This document shows positions 24,042-38,321 of a DNA stretch of 38,321 nt, piece by piece (position 1 is the first letter of the stretch; each line of letters begins with the position of its first letter). Position numbers and translations under genes: made by a program. The notes under the pieces were generated by a model. That model did not search any database and had not been told where the DNA came from. It worked only from the letters and a program-made list of their open reading frames with translations. The stretch is from Candidatus Segetimicrobium genomatis (lineage in GTDB: Bacteria > Sysuimicrobiota > Sysuimicrobiia > Sysuimicrobiales > Kaftiobacteriaceae): assembly GCA_005882295.1 (NCBI GenBank), contig VBAI01000009.1, forward strand, positions 1 to 38,321, read 5' to 3'.

Positions 24042-24689
24042 GTGCTGACTGCGTATCTGAAAGAACTGCAGAAAATCGCGCTGCTGCGGCCCGAGGACGA
24101 GCAGCAGTTGTGGTATCAGTACCGCATCCAGAAAGACGCCGAGAGCCGCCTGCGGCTCATCGAAGCGTACCAGCCGTTGGTGTTTAAGCTCGTCATGCAA
24201 ATCCGCCCCCCAGACGTCGTGTTGATGGACATGCTGCAGGAGGGGACGGTCGGGCTGATTGAGGCCGTGGAGCGTTTCGACCCCTCCCGAGGGGTGCGGT
24301 TCTCTACCTTTGCCGCCTATCGGGTCCGCGGGCGCGTGCTGAACTCGTTGCGACGGATCCGGCCTGTGGAGTACTCGCTGGAACAGGATGGCCAGAGCGA
24401 GATGGCGCTGGCCACACGCCTCGCCGATCCAGAATCCGATCATGCCCTCCTTGACGTCGAGGATGACGCCATGGTGGCGCAGGTCTGGCGGGCGGTGCGG
24501 GAGCTCCCGGAGCGTGAGCGTGCGATCCTGTGGGCCACCTACGCGGAATCGCGCGATCCGCGGCGCATTGCCGCGGAGCTACGAATTAGTCTGTCGCACT
24601 TCTACCGCCTGCACAAACAGGCCCTGTCGCACATGCGGCAGCTGGTGCTCGACGACGTGCAGCGGCCCAAGAATGCTCCTGGATACTAA
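24042..24689 (+). CDS. sigma-70 family RNA polymerase sigma factor
   Basis: A 215-residue sigma factor with regions 2 and 4. Region 2 contains LIEAYQPLVFKLVMQI, DMLQEGTVGLIEAVERFDPSRG and the -10 recognition/melting block RFSTFAAYRVRGRVLNSLRR (about 86-105). Region 4 ends with the helix-turn-helix RRIAAELRISLSHFYRLHKQAL. A FliA/WhiG-like or general sigma-70-like layout with a short region 3 fits better than ECF, since region 2 resembles DxFxxxRG-type motile/sporulation sigmas. The start is GTG 24042, 55 bases after tamB, with no obvious ribosome site. It sits inside the envelope cluster between tamB and bamA, so envelope gene control is a reasonable inference but untested. Confidence 0.85.
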   Translation: MLTAYLKELQKIALLRPEDEQQLWYQYRIQKDAESRLRLIEAYQPLVFKLVMQIRPPDVVLMDMLQEGTVGLIEAVERFDPSRGVRFSTFAAYRVRGRVLNSLRRIRPVEYSLEQDGQSEMALATRLADPESDHALLDVEDDAMVAQVWRAVRELPERERAILWATYAESRDPRRIAAELRISLSHFYRLHKQALSHMRQLVLDDVQRPKNAPGY

Positions 24690-25376: not shown

Positions 25377-25408
25377 TCCGGCCGGAGTTTGTGCGTGGAG
25401 GAGAGGCG

Positions 25409-27253
25409 ATGAGCCGTCCAGCGTTCCGGCTTCTGGTGGCCCCCGTGGTGGTGGCCTGCATCGCGCTGCTCTCAGCGCCGGGGTTGACGCAGTCACCGGC
25501 GCCGCAGCCGTCTCCCGCCGCTCCCCAGCAACCCTCGCCGCCTCCCGCCTCCCCGCCGCCCCCGATCGTCAAGAGGATCGAAGTCTCGGGCAATGTGAAG
25601 ATCGCCAGCGAGCAGATTCTGGCCGTGGTCACACAGACAAAGGCGGGCGAGCTTCTCAACGACGAGAAGTTGCGGGCTGATGTGCGCGCCATCAACGATC
25701 TGGGTTGGTTCGCCGATGTATCCGCCCGGTTCGAGCCAGAGCAGGGCGGTGTCGCGGTGATTTTCCTTGTGACAGAGAATCCGACGGTCGTTGATATCGT
25801 CATCGAGGGGAATACCGCCGTCACGGCCGGCGAGATTCGCGCCGCGCTGGGGGTGCCGGTCGGCGAAGTCTTGAACCTCACCAAAATGCGCGAAGGCGCC
25901 CGTTCCGTGCAGAAGCTGTACGCGGACAAGGGGTTTGGACTGGCACGCGTCGCCGACCTGAGCCTCCTGCCTATGGAGCGTCTGAACGAAGCGCGGCTGC
26001 GGGTACGTATCGCCGAAGGGGTCGTGGAGGCGGTCCGCTTTGAGGGACTGAGGAAAACTCTGCCGGTGGTGGCGGCGCGCTATGTGCGGGAGACGAAACC
26101 CGGGGTCGTTTTCAATCTGAACGTCCTGCAGCGCGATTTACAGCGGCTGTTTGATACCGGATTGTTCGAATCCATTCGAGCTCGGCCGGAACCGGGTGCT
26201 GCTCCGGACTCCACCGTCATCACCATCGAGGTGAAGGAAGCTCGCACGGCGTCGGCCTCCTTTGGACTGGGGTATAGCTCGAGCGAAGGGTTGTTGGGAT
26301 TTATCGAGTACCGGGATCGAAACTGGCAGGGCCTGGGGCAATCCGTTGCCGTCCGCGCGGAGCGAGCCGTGCAGGAGGGCACTGCCGAGCAACTCAACTA
26401 CGAAGTGAGCCTCAACGAACCGTTTCTCGACCCGCTGGGGACCGGTCTCGATCTGAGTCTCTTTTCCCGAAATTCTGTGGAGCAGGAGTACGCCCTCCTC
26501 AGCGGGCAGGCCACATCCCGCTTTAGCCTCCGGCGGGACGGGGCGACCCTAGGGCTCAGTCGGCCGCTGGATGGCGTCACGACCGGACTGATCAGACTCC
26601 GAAGCGAGTTCACCAACTTCAGTGCCCTCCCGCTCGACCCCAGTGATCCTGTTCCGTGTGGACCGGCGCCGGATCCCCGCTGTCCCCCGCCTTCGCTGCT
26701 GACGCCGGGTCGGGTTGTCAGCTTCCAGCTCTCAGCCATCCGCGACACACGGAACTCCCGATTTGCGCCCACCTCAGGGGACCGGATTCTCGCATCCGCC
26801 GAACTGGCGCCGCTGTGGCTCGGCGGGGAATTTGACTTCACGAAACTGAACCTCGACTATCAGCGCCTGTTCCCGACAGGTGGCGGCGCGGCATTCGTCG
26901 TCCGGCTGCTCGGAGGTCTCGCCAACGGGACGGTGCCGCTGCAGGACCAGTTTGTCCTCGGGGGCCCCAGCACCGTGCGCGGGCTGCCGTCGGGCTTCAA
27001 GCGCGACACGAGCATTCTCGTCGGCAACCTGGAGTACCGGTTCCCAATGAGCGCGCTCATCCCGTCGTTTACAGATGTGAGCTTGGTGCTCTTCGCCGAC
27101 AGTGGAGCCGCCCCACTGGACAGTACTCCCGAGACAGGATATGGCGTCGGCATCGCCATTAACACGCCGCTGGGCCCGATCCGCATCGACCTGGCGTGGC
27201 GCGGGCTCGATGGGAGCCGGCAGACGTGGCTGTCCCTTGGGGCACCCTTCTAA
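25409..27253 (+). CDS. bamA: outer membrane protein assembly factor BamA
   Basis: A 614-residue Omp85 protein: signal peptide (about 1-28), a Pro/Ala/Gln-rich linker (about 29-52), then three POTRA domains (about 53-290), the first starting IVKRIEVSGNVKIASEQIL, the second VVDIVIEGNTAVTAGEI, the third VVEAVRFEGLRKTLPVV. The 16-strand barrel runs from about 300, with the conserved QFVLGGPSTVRGLPSGF (VRG motif of loop 6) and the terminal LAWRGLDGSRQTWLSLGAPF, ending in Phe as barrel proteins do. Three POTRAs instead of five is usual outside Proteobacteria. ATG 25409 follows GGAGGAGAGG. It inserts beta-barrel proteins into the outer membrane and probably works with the TamB and Skp-like neighbours. 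Confidence 0.94.
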   Translation: MSRPAFRLLVAPVVVACIALLSAPGLTQSPAPQPSPAAPQQPSPPPASPPPPIVKRIEVSGNVKIASEQILAVVTQTKAGELLNDEKLRADVRAINDLGWFADVSARFEPEQGGVAVIFLVTENPTVVDIVIEGNTAVTAGEIRAALGVPVGEVLNLTKMREGARSVQKLYADKGFGLARVADLSLLPMERLNEARLRVRIAEGVVEAVRFEGLRKTLPVVAARYVRETKPGVVFNLNVLQRDLQRLFDTGLFESIRARPEPGAAPDSTVITIEVKEARTASASFGLGYSSSEGLLGFIEYRDRNWQGLGQSVAVRAERAVQEGTAEQLNYEVSLNEPFLDPLGTGLDLSLFSRNSVEQEYALLSGQATSRFSLRRDGATLGLSRPLDGVTTGLIRLRSEFTNFSALPLDPSDPVPCGPAPDPRCPPPSLLTPGRVVSFQLSAIRDTRNSRFAPTSGDRILASAELAPLWLGGEFDFTKLNLDYQRLFPTGGGAAFVVRLLGGLANGTVPLQDQFVLGGPSTVRGLPSGFKRDTSILVGNLEYRFPMSALIPSFTDVSLVLFADSGAAPLDSTPETGYGVGIAINTPLGPIRIDLAWRGLDGSRQTWLSLGAPF

Positions 27254-27354: not shown

Positions 27355-28669
27355 CTCCGCGGAGCCGAGGTTTCCCGCGACGCGGACGATTCGCTCGAGC
27401 GTCGCCCCGCTTATCGGCTTGCTGATGCTCGCCGCCGGCGTCGCGCCTGCCTGGGGCCAGACGGCGGTCCAGCAGGTGGTGGTCGAACTCAGCTTTGACG
27501 GCGCCACGCCTCACCGGATCATCCGGGACCGCCTCGAGGCGACGGTGAGCAGCGTCGCCGAGCGCCTGCTGCTTGGCCGCCCTTTGGAGCAGGTCGCGGC
27601 CTTGCTGCCCAGGCCAGAAGAGGCGATTGCCAGCGTGATCGAACGCGTCGCCGTCGGCTACGCTGTTGCCGACGCGGCGGTGCGTCCCAGCGCAACCACG
27701 GTGGTCAGCATCCGCATGCGGCCGGTCCGTCCCGTCGTGCGCGAGATCACCGTGATCCCCGACCTGCGCGCGCTGCACCAGCGCGTCCAGCCCCTCCTGA
27801 CCGGGCTACTGTCGGGACCGGCGGCGGAGATCCAGGTGTTGATGACCGGGCTGCCGGTGGCGTCACTGCAGTGGGCGGACTCGCTGATCGAGCTTCGGGT
27901 CCGCGACGTCGTGGAGGCGGCGCTGCCAGGATTCACCGCCACGATCCGGATCCATCCCGCGGAAGCCGCGCAGCTCGACCTGACGATCGTGCCCAAAGAC
28001 TCACGCGTCATCCGCAACATCGGCGTGCGGTTCCGGTCCACATCAATTCCCATCGTGCTGTTGGACCAGCATGGTCCGCAGGTCGCCTCCATGGCGGAAC
28101 CGTTACGCGGCCTCCCGGTCGCCTTTGCCGGGACTGTGCGGCGCGCCCTGGAGCGAATGCTCAACGAGCAGCTGGCGGCGTACCCTCCTGCCGCGGATTA
28201 CAATATCGTGGCCACCTCCCGGATCGAGGCCGCTGAGACCACCTACGTGACCGTCTCCGCGGAATCGCTGGTGTACCGGGCACGGGTCGAAGCCCGCCTC
28301 AATATCGGGCCCAGCGCGCCCGGCCCGGAAGTCGTGGTCCACTTGGGCCGGCTGGTTGCCCCGCCGCTGGAGCCGTTCCTCGAGGTCCGCCTGGTGCCGA
28401 CCCCTCTCTCGCTCACGGCAGACCTGGGCTTTCGCTACGAGGTGTCCCCGGTCTCGTCGCTGGGGGTGACCTATGCGCCGTCGACGCAGGAGACCATGCT
28501 GTGGACGACCGTGCAGGTCAGCCCCGATCTCGGCCTGCGCGGGGAGTGGGCGGTGCCCACCCAGGTGTTTGAAGGGACGCTGACCTACCGCCTCAACGAG
28601 TTCCTGGCGTGGGAACTCGTCGGCACATCACGCGGCGACGTGTGGCTGCGGCTGACCAGCAACCTGTGA
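27266..28669 (+). CDS. exported protein of unknown function, between bamA and the skp-like genes
   Basis: I do not recognise this family. The open frame from TTG 27266 has 467 codons, but the first about 45 translate the inverted array. A hydrophobic signal-peptide-like segment, VAPLIGLLMLAAGVAPAWGQ, starts near codon 46, so the true start probably lies later; no ATG or GTG is available before it (ATT 27389 would give a perfect signal peptide, and TTG 27419 is too late). TTG 27266 itself has an AGGA 7 bases upstream. The mature part has a helical middle and a beta-rich C-terminal 130 residues ending WLRLTSNL, possibly a small barrel or barrel-associated domain. The position suggests a periplasmic or outer-membrane role with BamA. 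Confidence 0.6.
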   Translation: MERWSVGKVKSYDQRPQEELSNFPTFQLFNSAEPRFPATRTIRSSVAPLIGLLMLAAGVAPAWGQTAVQQVVVELSFDGATPHRIIRDRLEATVSSVAERLLLGRPLEQVAALLPRPEEAIASVIERVAVGYAVADAAVRPSATTVVSIRMRPVRPVVREITVIPDLRALHQRVQPLLTGLLSGPAAEIQVLMTGLPVASLQWADSLIELRVRDVVEAALPGFTATIRIHPAEAAQLDLTIVPKDSRVIRNIGVRFRSTSIPIVLLDQHGPQVASMAEPLRGLPVAFAGTVRRALERMLNEQLAAYPPAADYNIVATSRIEAAETTYVTVSAESLVYRARVEARLNIGPSAPGPEVVVHLGRLVAPPLEPFLEVRLVPTPLSLTADLGFRYEVSPVSSLGVTYAPSTQETMLWTTVQVSPDLGLRGEWAVPTQVFEGTLTYRLNEFLAWELVGTSRGDVWLRLTSNL

Positions 28670-28679
28670 AACAGGAAAA

Positions 28680-28962
28680 GGGAAGAGGGATAAGGGAAGA
28701 GGGAAGACGGAAAGCACGCGGTGTTGGGTATGGTGAGGTACAATTGTGTGAGCGATTTGGCATGAGGTGAGGAAGCGGGTAGTAGTTCCTTCTTCCCTCT
28801 TCCTTCTTCCATTTTCCCTAGAGGAGGCTTGTGATGCAGATTCGAGGGAAGACAATTCGCACGCGGTGTTGGGTATGGTGAGGTACAATTGTGTGAGCGA
28901 TTTGGCATGAGGTGAGGAAGCGGGTAGTAGTTCCTTCTTCCCTCTTCCTTCTTCCATTTTCC
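28680..28962. repeat. inverted 7-nt tandem arrays, right arm duplicated
   Basis: Left arm 28680-28714 has 7-nt units gggaaga, gggataa, gggaaga, gggaaga, cggaaag. The pyrimidine right arm (ttcttcc, ctcttcc, ttcttcc, attttcc) occurs twice, at 28790-28817 and 28935-28962, because of the 145-bp duplication. One strand is almost pure purine. Either right arm could pair with the left arm. Confidence 0.75.
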
Positions 28963-29003
28963 CTAGAGGAGGCTTGTGATGCAGATTCGAGGGAAGACAA
29001 TTC
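28714..29003 (+). repeat. perfect 145-bp tandem duplication
   Basis: Copy 1 (28714-28858) and copy 2 (28859-29003) are identical over all 145 bases. Each contains a TACAAT hexamer (28739 and 28884), the pyrimidine array, the ribosome site GAGGAGG and the first eight codons of the skp-like gene. Only copy 2 continues into the gene. Perfect identity means the duplication is recent, kept identical, or an assembly error. Confidence 0.95.
28834..28881 (+). CDS. 15-codon leader reading frame created by the duplication
   Basis: The first copy of the duplicated ribosome site and start codon (GAGGAGG, 6 bases, ATG 28834) opens a frame of the same first eight codons as the skp-like gene (MQIRGKTI), then RTRCWVW and TGA at 28879-28881. 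It should be translated as well as the real gene because the initiation region is identical. It is probably a by-product, but it could affect translation of the downstream gene. Confidence 0.5.
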   Translation: MQIRGKTIRTRCWVW

Positions 29004-29440
29004 CCACGCTCTGGCTCGGCGGTGCGGCCGTTGTCGCTCTGCTGGTCCTGATCGGCCTGGTGGCGTGGCAGAGCGGCCCGGTCCTGGGGCAGTCGTTTAC
29101 CATCGGGTATGTGGACATGCAGCGCGCCCTGGATAACCACCCGCGCAAGGCCTCGTCAGAACGCGCCCTGCAGGAGTTCTTTCAGGCCAAGCAACGCGAG
29201 TTCCAGCAACGGGTCAAGAGCCTGGGGCCGGTGCAGCGCCAGGAGCTGGACCGTCAGCTCCAGCAGGAGTTCGTGCAGAAACGCGAGGAGCTGCTGAGCG
29301 GGCTGGACAAAGACATCCGCGTGGCCGTCGAGAAGGTCGGCCGCGACCACGGCATGAGCATCGTACTCGACCGCACCGTCGTGCTGTACGGCGGGGTGGA
29401 CCTGACCGACGCGGTGATCGCCCAGTTGACTGCGAAGTAG
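28979..29440 (+). CDS. Skp/OmpH-like periplasmic chaperone 1
   Basis: A 153-residue OmpH-family protein. A signal peptide or anchor (LWLGGAAVVALLVLIGLVAW, about 11-30) is followed by GYVDMQRALDNHPRKASSE, a Gln/Glu/Arg-rich coiled coil (about 62-115) and the closing strands DHGMSIVLDRTVVLYGGVDLT, given here in two parts. This is the usual Skp fold, a trimer that holds unfolded outer-membrane proteins for BamA. ATG 28979 is chosen with GAGGAGG 6 bases upstream; GTG 28976 is in frame just before it. First of three tandem paralogues sharing a C-terminal (G/A)G-(V/I)-D-(L/I)-T motif. Confidence 0.85.
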   Translation: MQIRGKTIPTLWLGGAAVVALLVLIGLVAWQSGPVLGQSFTIGYVDMQRALDNHPRKASSERALQEFFQAKQREFQQRVKSLGPVQRQELDRQLQQEFVQKREELLSGLDKDIRVAVEKVGRDHGMSIVLDRTVVLYGGVDLTDAVIAQLTAK

Positions 29441-29456: not shown

Positions 29457-30575
29457 ATGTGGCAGGGACATGCGGCGCGGACCACGGTGCGGGCCGGGTT
29501 TCTCCTGGTCCTCGCGGTGGTATTGGCGGGAGGTTGCCGGGGACGGGTCCGCAGCACCTCCGCCCCGGTGGCAGAGACCCGTGTGGGCGTCGTCGACTTG
29601 CAGGTTGTGACCCGCGCGCACCCTCACTGGCAGGAGCTCAATGCCGTGGTCCAGCAGGTGGCGGACGTGCAGGCGCAACTGGCCCTGCTCCCGGGGGCGC
29701 CGGTCATGCCTGAGGTCGATGTGCAGCGCGCGCTCGACCTGGAAGCACGCCAGCTGCAGGGCGAGCTAGACAAGGAGCTGGCCTTCGTCAAACAAGACAC
29801 CGAGCGGCGCCTGGAGGCCTTCGCGGACGGGTTGCGCACCGAGCAGGCGGCCAAGATCGATCAGGTCCGTCAGGACCTGGAGGCCCAGGGGGGTCGGGCG
29901 ATCCTGGCCAAGCGCGACGAGTTGCGTGCGCAGTTGCGCGAGGCCGAGCAATCCATCCGTGATGAGTACCGCTATCCTCTGCTGAACCTTCGCCTGCGGG
30001 CCGAGGTGGCAGGCCTCACCTCAGAAGAAGAGGCGAAGCAACTGCAGCAGCAAGTCCAGGCCCTGCAGGATGAGCGCGCACAGCGCATCGCCGCCAAGGC
30101 GGACGAGACGCAAAAAGCGTTTACGGCGTTTCAGAAGGCCAAAGAGGATGAGATCAACGCGAAGCTGTTGACCGCGGAGCAGGCGGCGCAGGCAGAGGCG
30201 CAGCAGCGGCTGCTGGTCCGCCAGCAGGAACTGCAAGAAGAACTGAGACACACCGCAGCCGGCATGGAAGAGACATTCCGCGCCCGCCTGGACCGGCGCC
30301 GCAAGGAACTCCTGGCCGCGGCCCAGGGGCCGGTGCCAGGACGGCAGGGCACATATACGGAGAGTCTGGGCGAACGCACCCGGCGGCTGCGGGCGGAACT
30401 GGCGTCCCTGCAAGAGCAGCGGGTCCGGCTCGAGGACGGCATCCTGGCCGAGGTGAAAATCGAGGTCGCGGCCATCGCGCAGGACCGCAGACTCGATGTG
30501 GTCCTGACCCGATTCGTCAGCAATGTGGCCGGGATCGACATTACCACCGACGTGGTCGAGAAGCTGAAGCGATGA
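29457..30575 (+). CDS. Skp/OmpH-like lipoprotein 2 with long coiled coil
   Basis: A 372-residue protein with a lipoprotein-type signal (AGFLLVLAVVLAGGC, lipidation Cys about residue 27). An OmpH-like start (GVVDLQVVTRAHPHWQEL) is followed by a very long coiled coil rich in Gln, Glu, Ala and Arg (about 75-330). The OmpH closing segment comes last ([33 protein letters not shown] in two parts). It is more than twice normal Skp length, so the helical tentacles would be much longer. Membrane anchoring would hold the chaperone at one membrane. ATG 29457 has no clear ribosome site; it begins 16 bases after the previous stop. The stop overlaps the next start (ATGA). Confidence 0.8.
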   Translation: MWQGHAARTTVRAGFLLVLAVVLAGGCRGRVRSTSAPVAETRVGVVDLQVVTRAHPHWQELNAVVQQVADVQAQLALLPGAPVMPEVDVQRALDLEARQLQGELDKELAFVKQDTERRLEAFADGLRTEQAAKIDQVRQDLEAQGGRAILAKRDELRAQLREAEQSIRDEYRYPLLNLRLRAEVAGLTSEEEAKQLQQQVQALQDERAQRIAAKADETQKAFTAFQKAKEDEINAKLLTAEQAAQAEAQQRLLVRQQELQEELRHTAAGMEETFRARLDRRRKELLAAAQGPVPGRQGTYTESLGERTRRLRAELASLQEQRVRLEDGILAEVKIEVAAIAQDRRLDVVLTRFVSNVAGIDITTDVVEKLKR

Positions 30576-37837: not shown

Positions 37838-38321
37838 ATGCTGGCCGCGACAGGGCTCGTCAAACGCTACGGACCGCGCACGGTCGTGAACGGCGTGGCC
37901 GTGCAGGTCGAACGCGGCGAGACCGTTGGGCTCCTCGGTCCCAACGGCGCGGGCAAGACCACGACGTTCTACATGATGGTGGGACTGGTGCGGCCCGATG
38001 CCGGGGAGGTGCTCCTGGATGGGGCGTCCCTGACGGCGATGCCGGTGCACGAGCGGGCCCGGCGCGGCATCGGGTATCTGGCGCAGGATCCCTCGGTCTT
38101 TCGCGGGCTCACTGTTGAAGAAAACATCCTCATGATCCTGCAGGCGAATGGGGCCGCGAAGGCGGCGCAGCACGAGGTGCTGGAACGACTGCTTCGCGAG
38201 TTTGGCCTGCTCACCGTCCGCAAGCAGCGCGGGGTGACGCTCTCAGGAGGCGAACGGCGCCGCGTCGAAATCGCGCGCGTCCTGGCGATGAATCCCTCCT
38301 ATGTGCTGCTCGACGAGCCGT
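37838..38321 (+). CDS. lptB: LPS export ABC transporter ATP-binding protein LptB, N-terminal part
   Basis: The first 161 codons of the ATPase that powers LPS extraction; the gene runs off the window. Walker A is LLGPNGAGKTTTFYMMVG (about 31-48), the Q-loop is YLAQDPSVFRGLTVEEN, the ABC signature is LSGGERRRVEIAR, and Walker B is YVLLDEP at the very end. The FRGLTVEENI stretch is typical of LptB. ATG 37838 follows 5 bases after the TAA of the GIY-YIG gene. Before the insertion it would have followed the lptA stop by 4 bases, the usual lptA-lptB coupling. Confidence 0.92.
   Translation, partial: MLAATGLVKRYGPRTVVNGVAVQVERGETVGLLGPNGAGKTTTFYMMVGLVRPDAGEVLLDGASLTAMPVHERARRGIGYLAQDPSVFRGLTVEENILMILQANGAAKAAQHEVLERLLREFGLLTVRKQRGVTLSGGERRRVEIARVLAMNPSYVLLDEP

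Follow-up and report, generated by a model that had tools for sequence, protein, structure and literature searches.

A perfect 145-bp tandem duplication across the start of a skp-like gene, most likely a recent copying slip

The window analysed here is the whole stretch of 38,321 nucleotides from contig VBAI01000009.1 of Candidatus Segetimicrobium genomatis. It belongs to a draft genome (G000) of 2,863,072 bases, and contains no N or other ambiguous base at any position, the duplication junction included. Within it lies a skp-like gene (Table 1) whose protein exceeds the Pfam OmpH curated cut-off (63.9 bits versus 32.4) and is 86% identical to its counterpart in each of two same-genus genomes, G001 and G002. 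The skp/OmpH name, and the putative chaperone role that goes with it, follow from this family membership. The gene sits in a BamA/Skp/LpxD/LpxC-like cluster, preceded by an Omp85/POTRA protein and a 467-aa open reading frame without a Pfam or NCBIfam match, and followed by two more OmpH-related reading frames (one of which, 29457-30575, scores below the Pfam cut-off), an LpxD-like hexapeptide protein and LpxC. At the far end of the window, parts of 37922-38321 weakly match 13 other genome places at 70-89% identity.

Table 1. Positions of the features discussed, numbered from the first base of the window
Feature	Position	Strand	Details
Omp85/POTRA protein, before the skp-like gene	25391-27253		
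Purine heptamer arm, single	28679..28712	+	inverted repeat I1/I2, 34 nt, 82% complementary
Upstream partner of imperfect 21-bp homology	28699..28719	+	10 matches, 6 mismatches, 5 matches
Copy 1 of 145-bp unit	28714..28858	+	145/145 identical to copy 2
Short-spaced element, degenerate	28724-28744, 28869-28889		
TACAAT, -10-like box, copy 1	28739..28744	+	putative promoter function
Pyrimidine arm, copy 1	28786..28819	+	inverted repeat, 34 nt, 82% complementary
Shine-Dalgarno and start region, copy 1	28821..28836	+	GAGGAGGCTTGTGATG
15-residue reading frame with stop	28834..28881	+	from translation; copy 1 reading into copy 2
Copy 1/copy 2 junction	28855-28866		reads ATTC, then GCACGCGG
Copy 2 of 145-bp unit	28859..29003	+	identical to copy 1; joined to the functional gene
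TACAAT, -10-like box, copy 2	28884..28889	+	putative promoter function
Pyrimidine arm, copy 2	28931..28964	+	inverted repeat, 34 nt, 82% complementary
Shine-Dalgarno and start region, copy 2	28966..28981	+	GAGGAGGCTTGTGATG
skp/OmpH-like gene	28979..29440	+	153 aa from ATG; Pfam PF03938 OmpH, E 2.5e-17
Downstream partner of imperfect 21-bp homology	28989..29009	+	10 matches, 6 mismatches, 5 matches
Short-spaced element, other loci	L007-L011, L014-L016, L018-L020, L022, L023		

The gene is entered through two head-to-tail copies of a 145-bp unit that agree at every base, as a preliminary description of this DNA had claimed. The period of 145 is exact and its limits are sharp, as 28713 differs from 28858 and 29004 from 28859; Tandem Repeats Finder reports the period-145 repeat at 28714-29009. 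At 50% G+C, compared with 66% for the window, the unit contains a TACAAT box, a pyrimidine arm, GAGGAGG, GTGATG and the first codons of the skp-like gene. We sampled 654,617 bases, made up of 20 stretches of the duplication-bearing genome (254,617 bases) and 20 of another genome, G023 (400,000 bases), and found exact repeats of at least 40 bp within 1 kb at three places. One is the 145-bp duplication, which is more than chance would produce, and another is a 61-bp repeat 929 bases apart (L078). The third is a 128-bp repeat in G023 (L096, 15679-15905) that flanks 98 Ns and is probably a scaffold join with an unmerged overlap, an error type described in PMC7111523.

Both copies carry the same initiation region, again as first described. 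The accompanying claim of an ATG and eight codons per copy stands only if the ATG is itself counted, the actual content being ATG, seven further codons and one base. From 28834, the upstream ATG translates to MQIRGKTIRTRCWVW followed by TGA, giving the 15-residue peptide that had been predicted, and its stop lies 97 bases from the real start. In the closest relatives GTGATG forms the start region of the skp-like gene, and thus the GTG at 28976 may serve as an alternative start.

Comparison with relatives points to a young duplication. Of 61 genomes, 43 gave a match to the skp-like gene; a locus was available for 30 of these, and the upstream region was read in every one. In G001 and G002, the two same-genus genomes compared, the 145-bp unit is single-copy, and a BLAST search with the gene leader finds one match in each (79% and 75% identical). 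This comparison of one copy with two, proposed earlier for sibling strains, could thus be made at the level of sister species, and it lends support to the preliminary suggestion of a recent slippage event. Compared with the sister sequences, 102 of 140 aligned sites of the unit are identical in one case, with 11 gap columns, and 99 of 142 in the other, with 7; for the skp-like gene the identical bases number 390 and 391 out of 462. The two copies, by contrast, differ from each other at 0 of 145 positions (95% upper bound, 2.04% divergence). Thus, we consider the duplication recent, although gene conversion between the copies could also have kept them identical. Where the unit begins, both sisters lack 13 aligned columns, though a similar CACGCGG occurs there in G003, so the ancestral upstream end can be reconstructed only tentatively.

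The breakpoints fall on sequences that resemble each other. When the two ends of the unit are aligned in the one-copy form they match at 15 of 21 positions, with the crossover between the fifth and sixth mismatch; the present sequence has no perfect microhomology at the exact crossover, which has five mismatched bases before it and one after. If 29004 were G, as in G001 and G002, rather than C, a 6-bp match (GCACGC) would span the crossover, but G003 has C, and the ancestral base is therefore ambiguous. We compared 54,000 pairs of positions across the one-copy region, at separations of 80-259 bases. Counting the observed pair, 17 of them have at least 18 of 32 bases matching, and 8 have a run score (the summed squares of run lengths) as high as the one observed. 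On the offset-145 diagonal itself, 8 of 280 positions reach that score. In the rest of the genome sample, at the same offset, the level of 18 of 32 is attained at 77 of 249,003 positions and the observed run score at none. These figures are a guide rather than a pre-fixed test, as we settled on the run score, and on a half-width of 16 bases, once the junction had been seen. Additionally, the duplication starts one base past the end of the purine arm. A junction match beside a hairpin fits slippage better than it fits a chance overlap of contig ends.

We therefore favour, at a probability of roughly two in three, the view that this lineage recently underwent a genuine tandem duplication through slippage or template switching, probably aided by the hairpin. 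Replication would have slipped, or switched template, between the imperfect 21-bp ends, whose spacing in the one-copy form is 145 bp, and stalling at the purine/pyrimidine inverted repeat probably assisted. Both the slippage mechanism and the hairpin's part in it are what we infer from the arrangement. Since the gene would still have a complete leader, Shine-Dalgarno site and start of its own, little change in expression would be expected; the duplication would have added no more than one further -10-like box and a short reading frame upstream.

The second copy could instead have been made in assembly, from overlapping contig ends set side by side unmerged or from a wrongly counted repeat, with the true genome holding one copy. 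We regard this as the less likely case and allow it about a quarter of the probability. The contig is one of 317 in a draft that has runs of Ns elsewhere, both kinds of local error are described for metagenome assemblies, and wrong repeat numbers are named as common (PMC7111523). The same intergenic region is probably hard to assemble, because in G005 (L008) a run of Ns interrupts the leader of the skp-like gene, with purine heptamer tracts on either side. In our sample just one further exact repeat within 1 kb reaches 100 bp, namely the one lying round 98 Ns in G023, but that N-gap duplicate differs in form from the 145-bp duplication, whose junction is free of Ns. Had contig ends simply been joined, it would also be unexpected for both breakpoints to coincide with the two short sequences that match best in this region, and the 10-bp and 5-bp junction matches are shorter than usual assembler k-mers. 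We looked for end overlaps from which the assembler's word length might be inferred, and found none between the window ends and other contigs, nor among 15 whole contigs except that of an all-N contig with itself.

A real duplication need not be a neutral one, as the second box and initiation region might tune or raise chaperone expression, or a leader peptide might be made from the upstream reading frame. The -10-like box, Shine-Dalgarno site and start codon were duplicated as a block in a unit that ends just inside the gene, and leader genes have been proposed to raise expression by reinitiation (PMC4833913). At 18 of the 30 loci examined, the skp-like gene is preceded by a TA(C/G)AAT box; two such boxes within 250 bases upstream occur in the window only, one occurs at 17 other loci, and 12 have none. 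However, a selected change seems improbable. The two-copy form is found in one genome only, the 0/145 differences leave no time for selection to show, and the upstream reading frame ends 97 bases short of the real start. Predicted exposure of the Shine-Dalgarno site is as it was before the duplication, and no sigma-70 site of standard spacing was found in 28600-29100, a region where intrinsic terminators likewise numbered zero.

The boxes upstream of the skp-like gene also form part of a short-spaced arrangement at some loci. At 13 of the 30, a TTGA(C)-N7/8-TA(C/G)AAT element, with its hexamers spaced by 7 or 8 bases and not 17, lies upstream of the gene (5 of 9 loci in family f1, 8 of 9 in f5 and 0 of 12 in f4, f6 and f7 together). 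Over 43 genomes the strict pattern matches 19 places, 11 of them at the skp-like gene, compared with 8 for the reversed control. We rejected it as a promoter form in general use, as TTGAC-TANAAT spacings in the G000 and G023 stretches are about 17-20, with 0 at 7-9, and the element stays particular to the skp-like gene in two families. Near the Omp85 gene, 24042-24689 encodes a sigma-70-type factor with matches to regions 2 and 4 and no region 3 match listed; its best NCBIfam row is sigma70-ECF, and region 2 also resembles WhiG/FliA and RpoH. As an explanation of the short-spaced element this gene is unsupported, being present in 35 of the 43 genomes, families without the element among them.

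A single purine arm faces two identical pyrimidine arms, as had been pointed out, and the preliminary description saw in this a potential switch, the purine arm choosing between its two partners. Folding predictions do not support that proposal, and we give it almost no credence. In the predicted ensemble of a read-through RNA, pairing is one-sided, the purine arm having a value of 0.83 with the distal pyrimidine arm and 0.03 with the near one, and the real Shine-Dalgarno site is predicted to be unpaired at 0.571 with two copies versus 0.580 with one. Exposure thus being nearly equal with one copy or two, any effect is expected to be small. With transcription assumed to begin directly downstream of the TACAAT boxes, the corresponding values are 0.372 versus 0.379, and transcripts from the boxes inside the unit, their start sites again being assumed, would lack the purine arm altogether. 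The whole region folds better than shuffled sequences (z -2.45, 3 of 100 as good), and the copy-2 leader alone is unremarkable against shuffles (z -1.16, 24 of 200 as good). A search of Rfam at E up to 1 over 28500-29200 gave 7 rows, six of them microRNA families, and all scored so far below the gathering scores that we took them as chance matches to the inverted repeat.

The arms belong to what looks like a dispersed repeat, which in relatives occurs without a duplicated arm, a further point against the switch. They are built of heptamer purine tandem units of the GGAAGAG / GGAAGAA type, with tandem periods of 14, and purine heptamer tracts facing pyrimidine arms recur in relatives as intergenic-looking hairpins (L133-L140). 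A 20-base arm pattern, allowing up to 2 mismatches and counting overlapping registers, matches 5 of the 43 genomes of the order (G000 8, G001 50, G002 56, G005 155, G007 7; controls 0 to 5 per genome) and gives 0 matches in the other 38. The 8 matches in G000 overlap and lie on 4 contigs, half of them (4) within the window. The hairpin pattern matches four of the 43 genomes (G001, G002, G005 and G007; controls 0) and has no match in G000, whose arms at the present locus are 73 bases apart.

An exact repeat of 145 bp may also expand and contract, such that copy number per cell would become a reversible setting of outer-membrane assembly. If so, cells would differ in how many -10-like boxes, ribosome sites and starts (one, two or more) precede the skp/lpx genes, but we see only a very slight chance of this, and an ordinary recent copying slip is most likely. 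If the duplication is real, it offers a fresh example of the onset of tandem duplication, with its matching ends and adjoining inverted repeat still in place, and a natural test of how an outer-membrane gene set responds to a doubled initiation region. Should it be an assembly error, it stands as a warning against inferring leader peptides and switches from draft genomes.

The nearest published counterpart of the arms that we encountered is the family of heptameric G-rich repeats, GGGAATC in Xanthomonas and GGGGA(T/C)T in Nostoc, which often form convergent inverted pairs, with 70 cases in one Xanthomonas genome and 75 in another (PMC4692102). The repeats at our locus resemble them in being purine-rich heptamer tandem units that are intergenic, apparently dispersed and found in inverted pairs, but the units here are GGAAGAG / GGAAGAA, and 'GGGAAGA' is absent from the main text of that paper. 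With the scaffold-join duplicates treated in PMC7111523 the locus shares a perfect short-range duplicate in a metagenome-type draft, and it differs in having 0 Ns between the copies and ends that lie on matching sequence. It is well established that slippage occurs at hairpins with short direct repeats on either side (PMC4134008), and the system presented there is similar in its short imperfect direct repeats, an inverted repeat by the breakpoint and a perfect recent copy. Whereas that system consists of archaeal polymerases in vitro, the duplication reported here lies in a natural environmental genome, with its crossover within a mismatched part of the homology.
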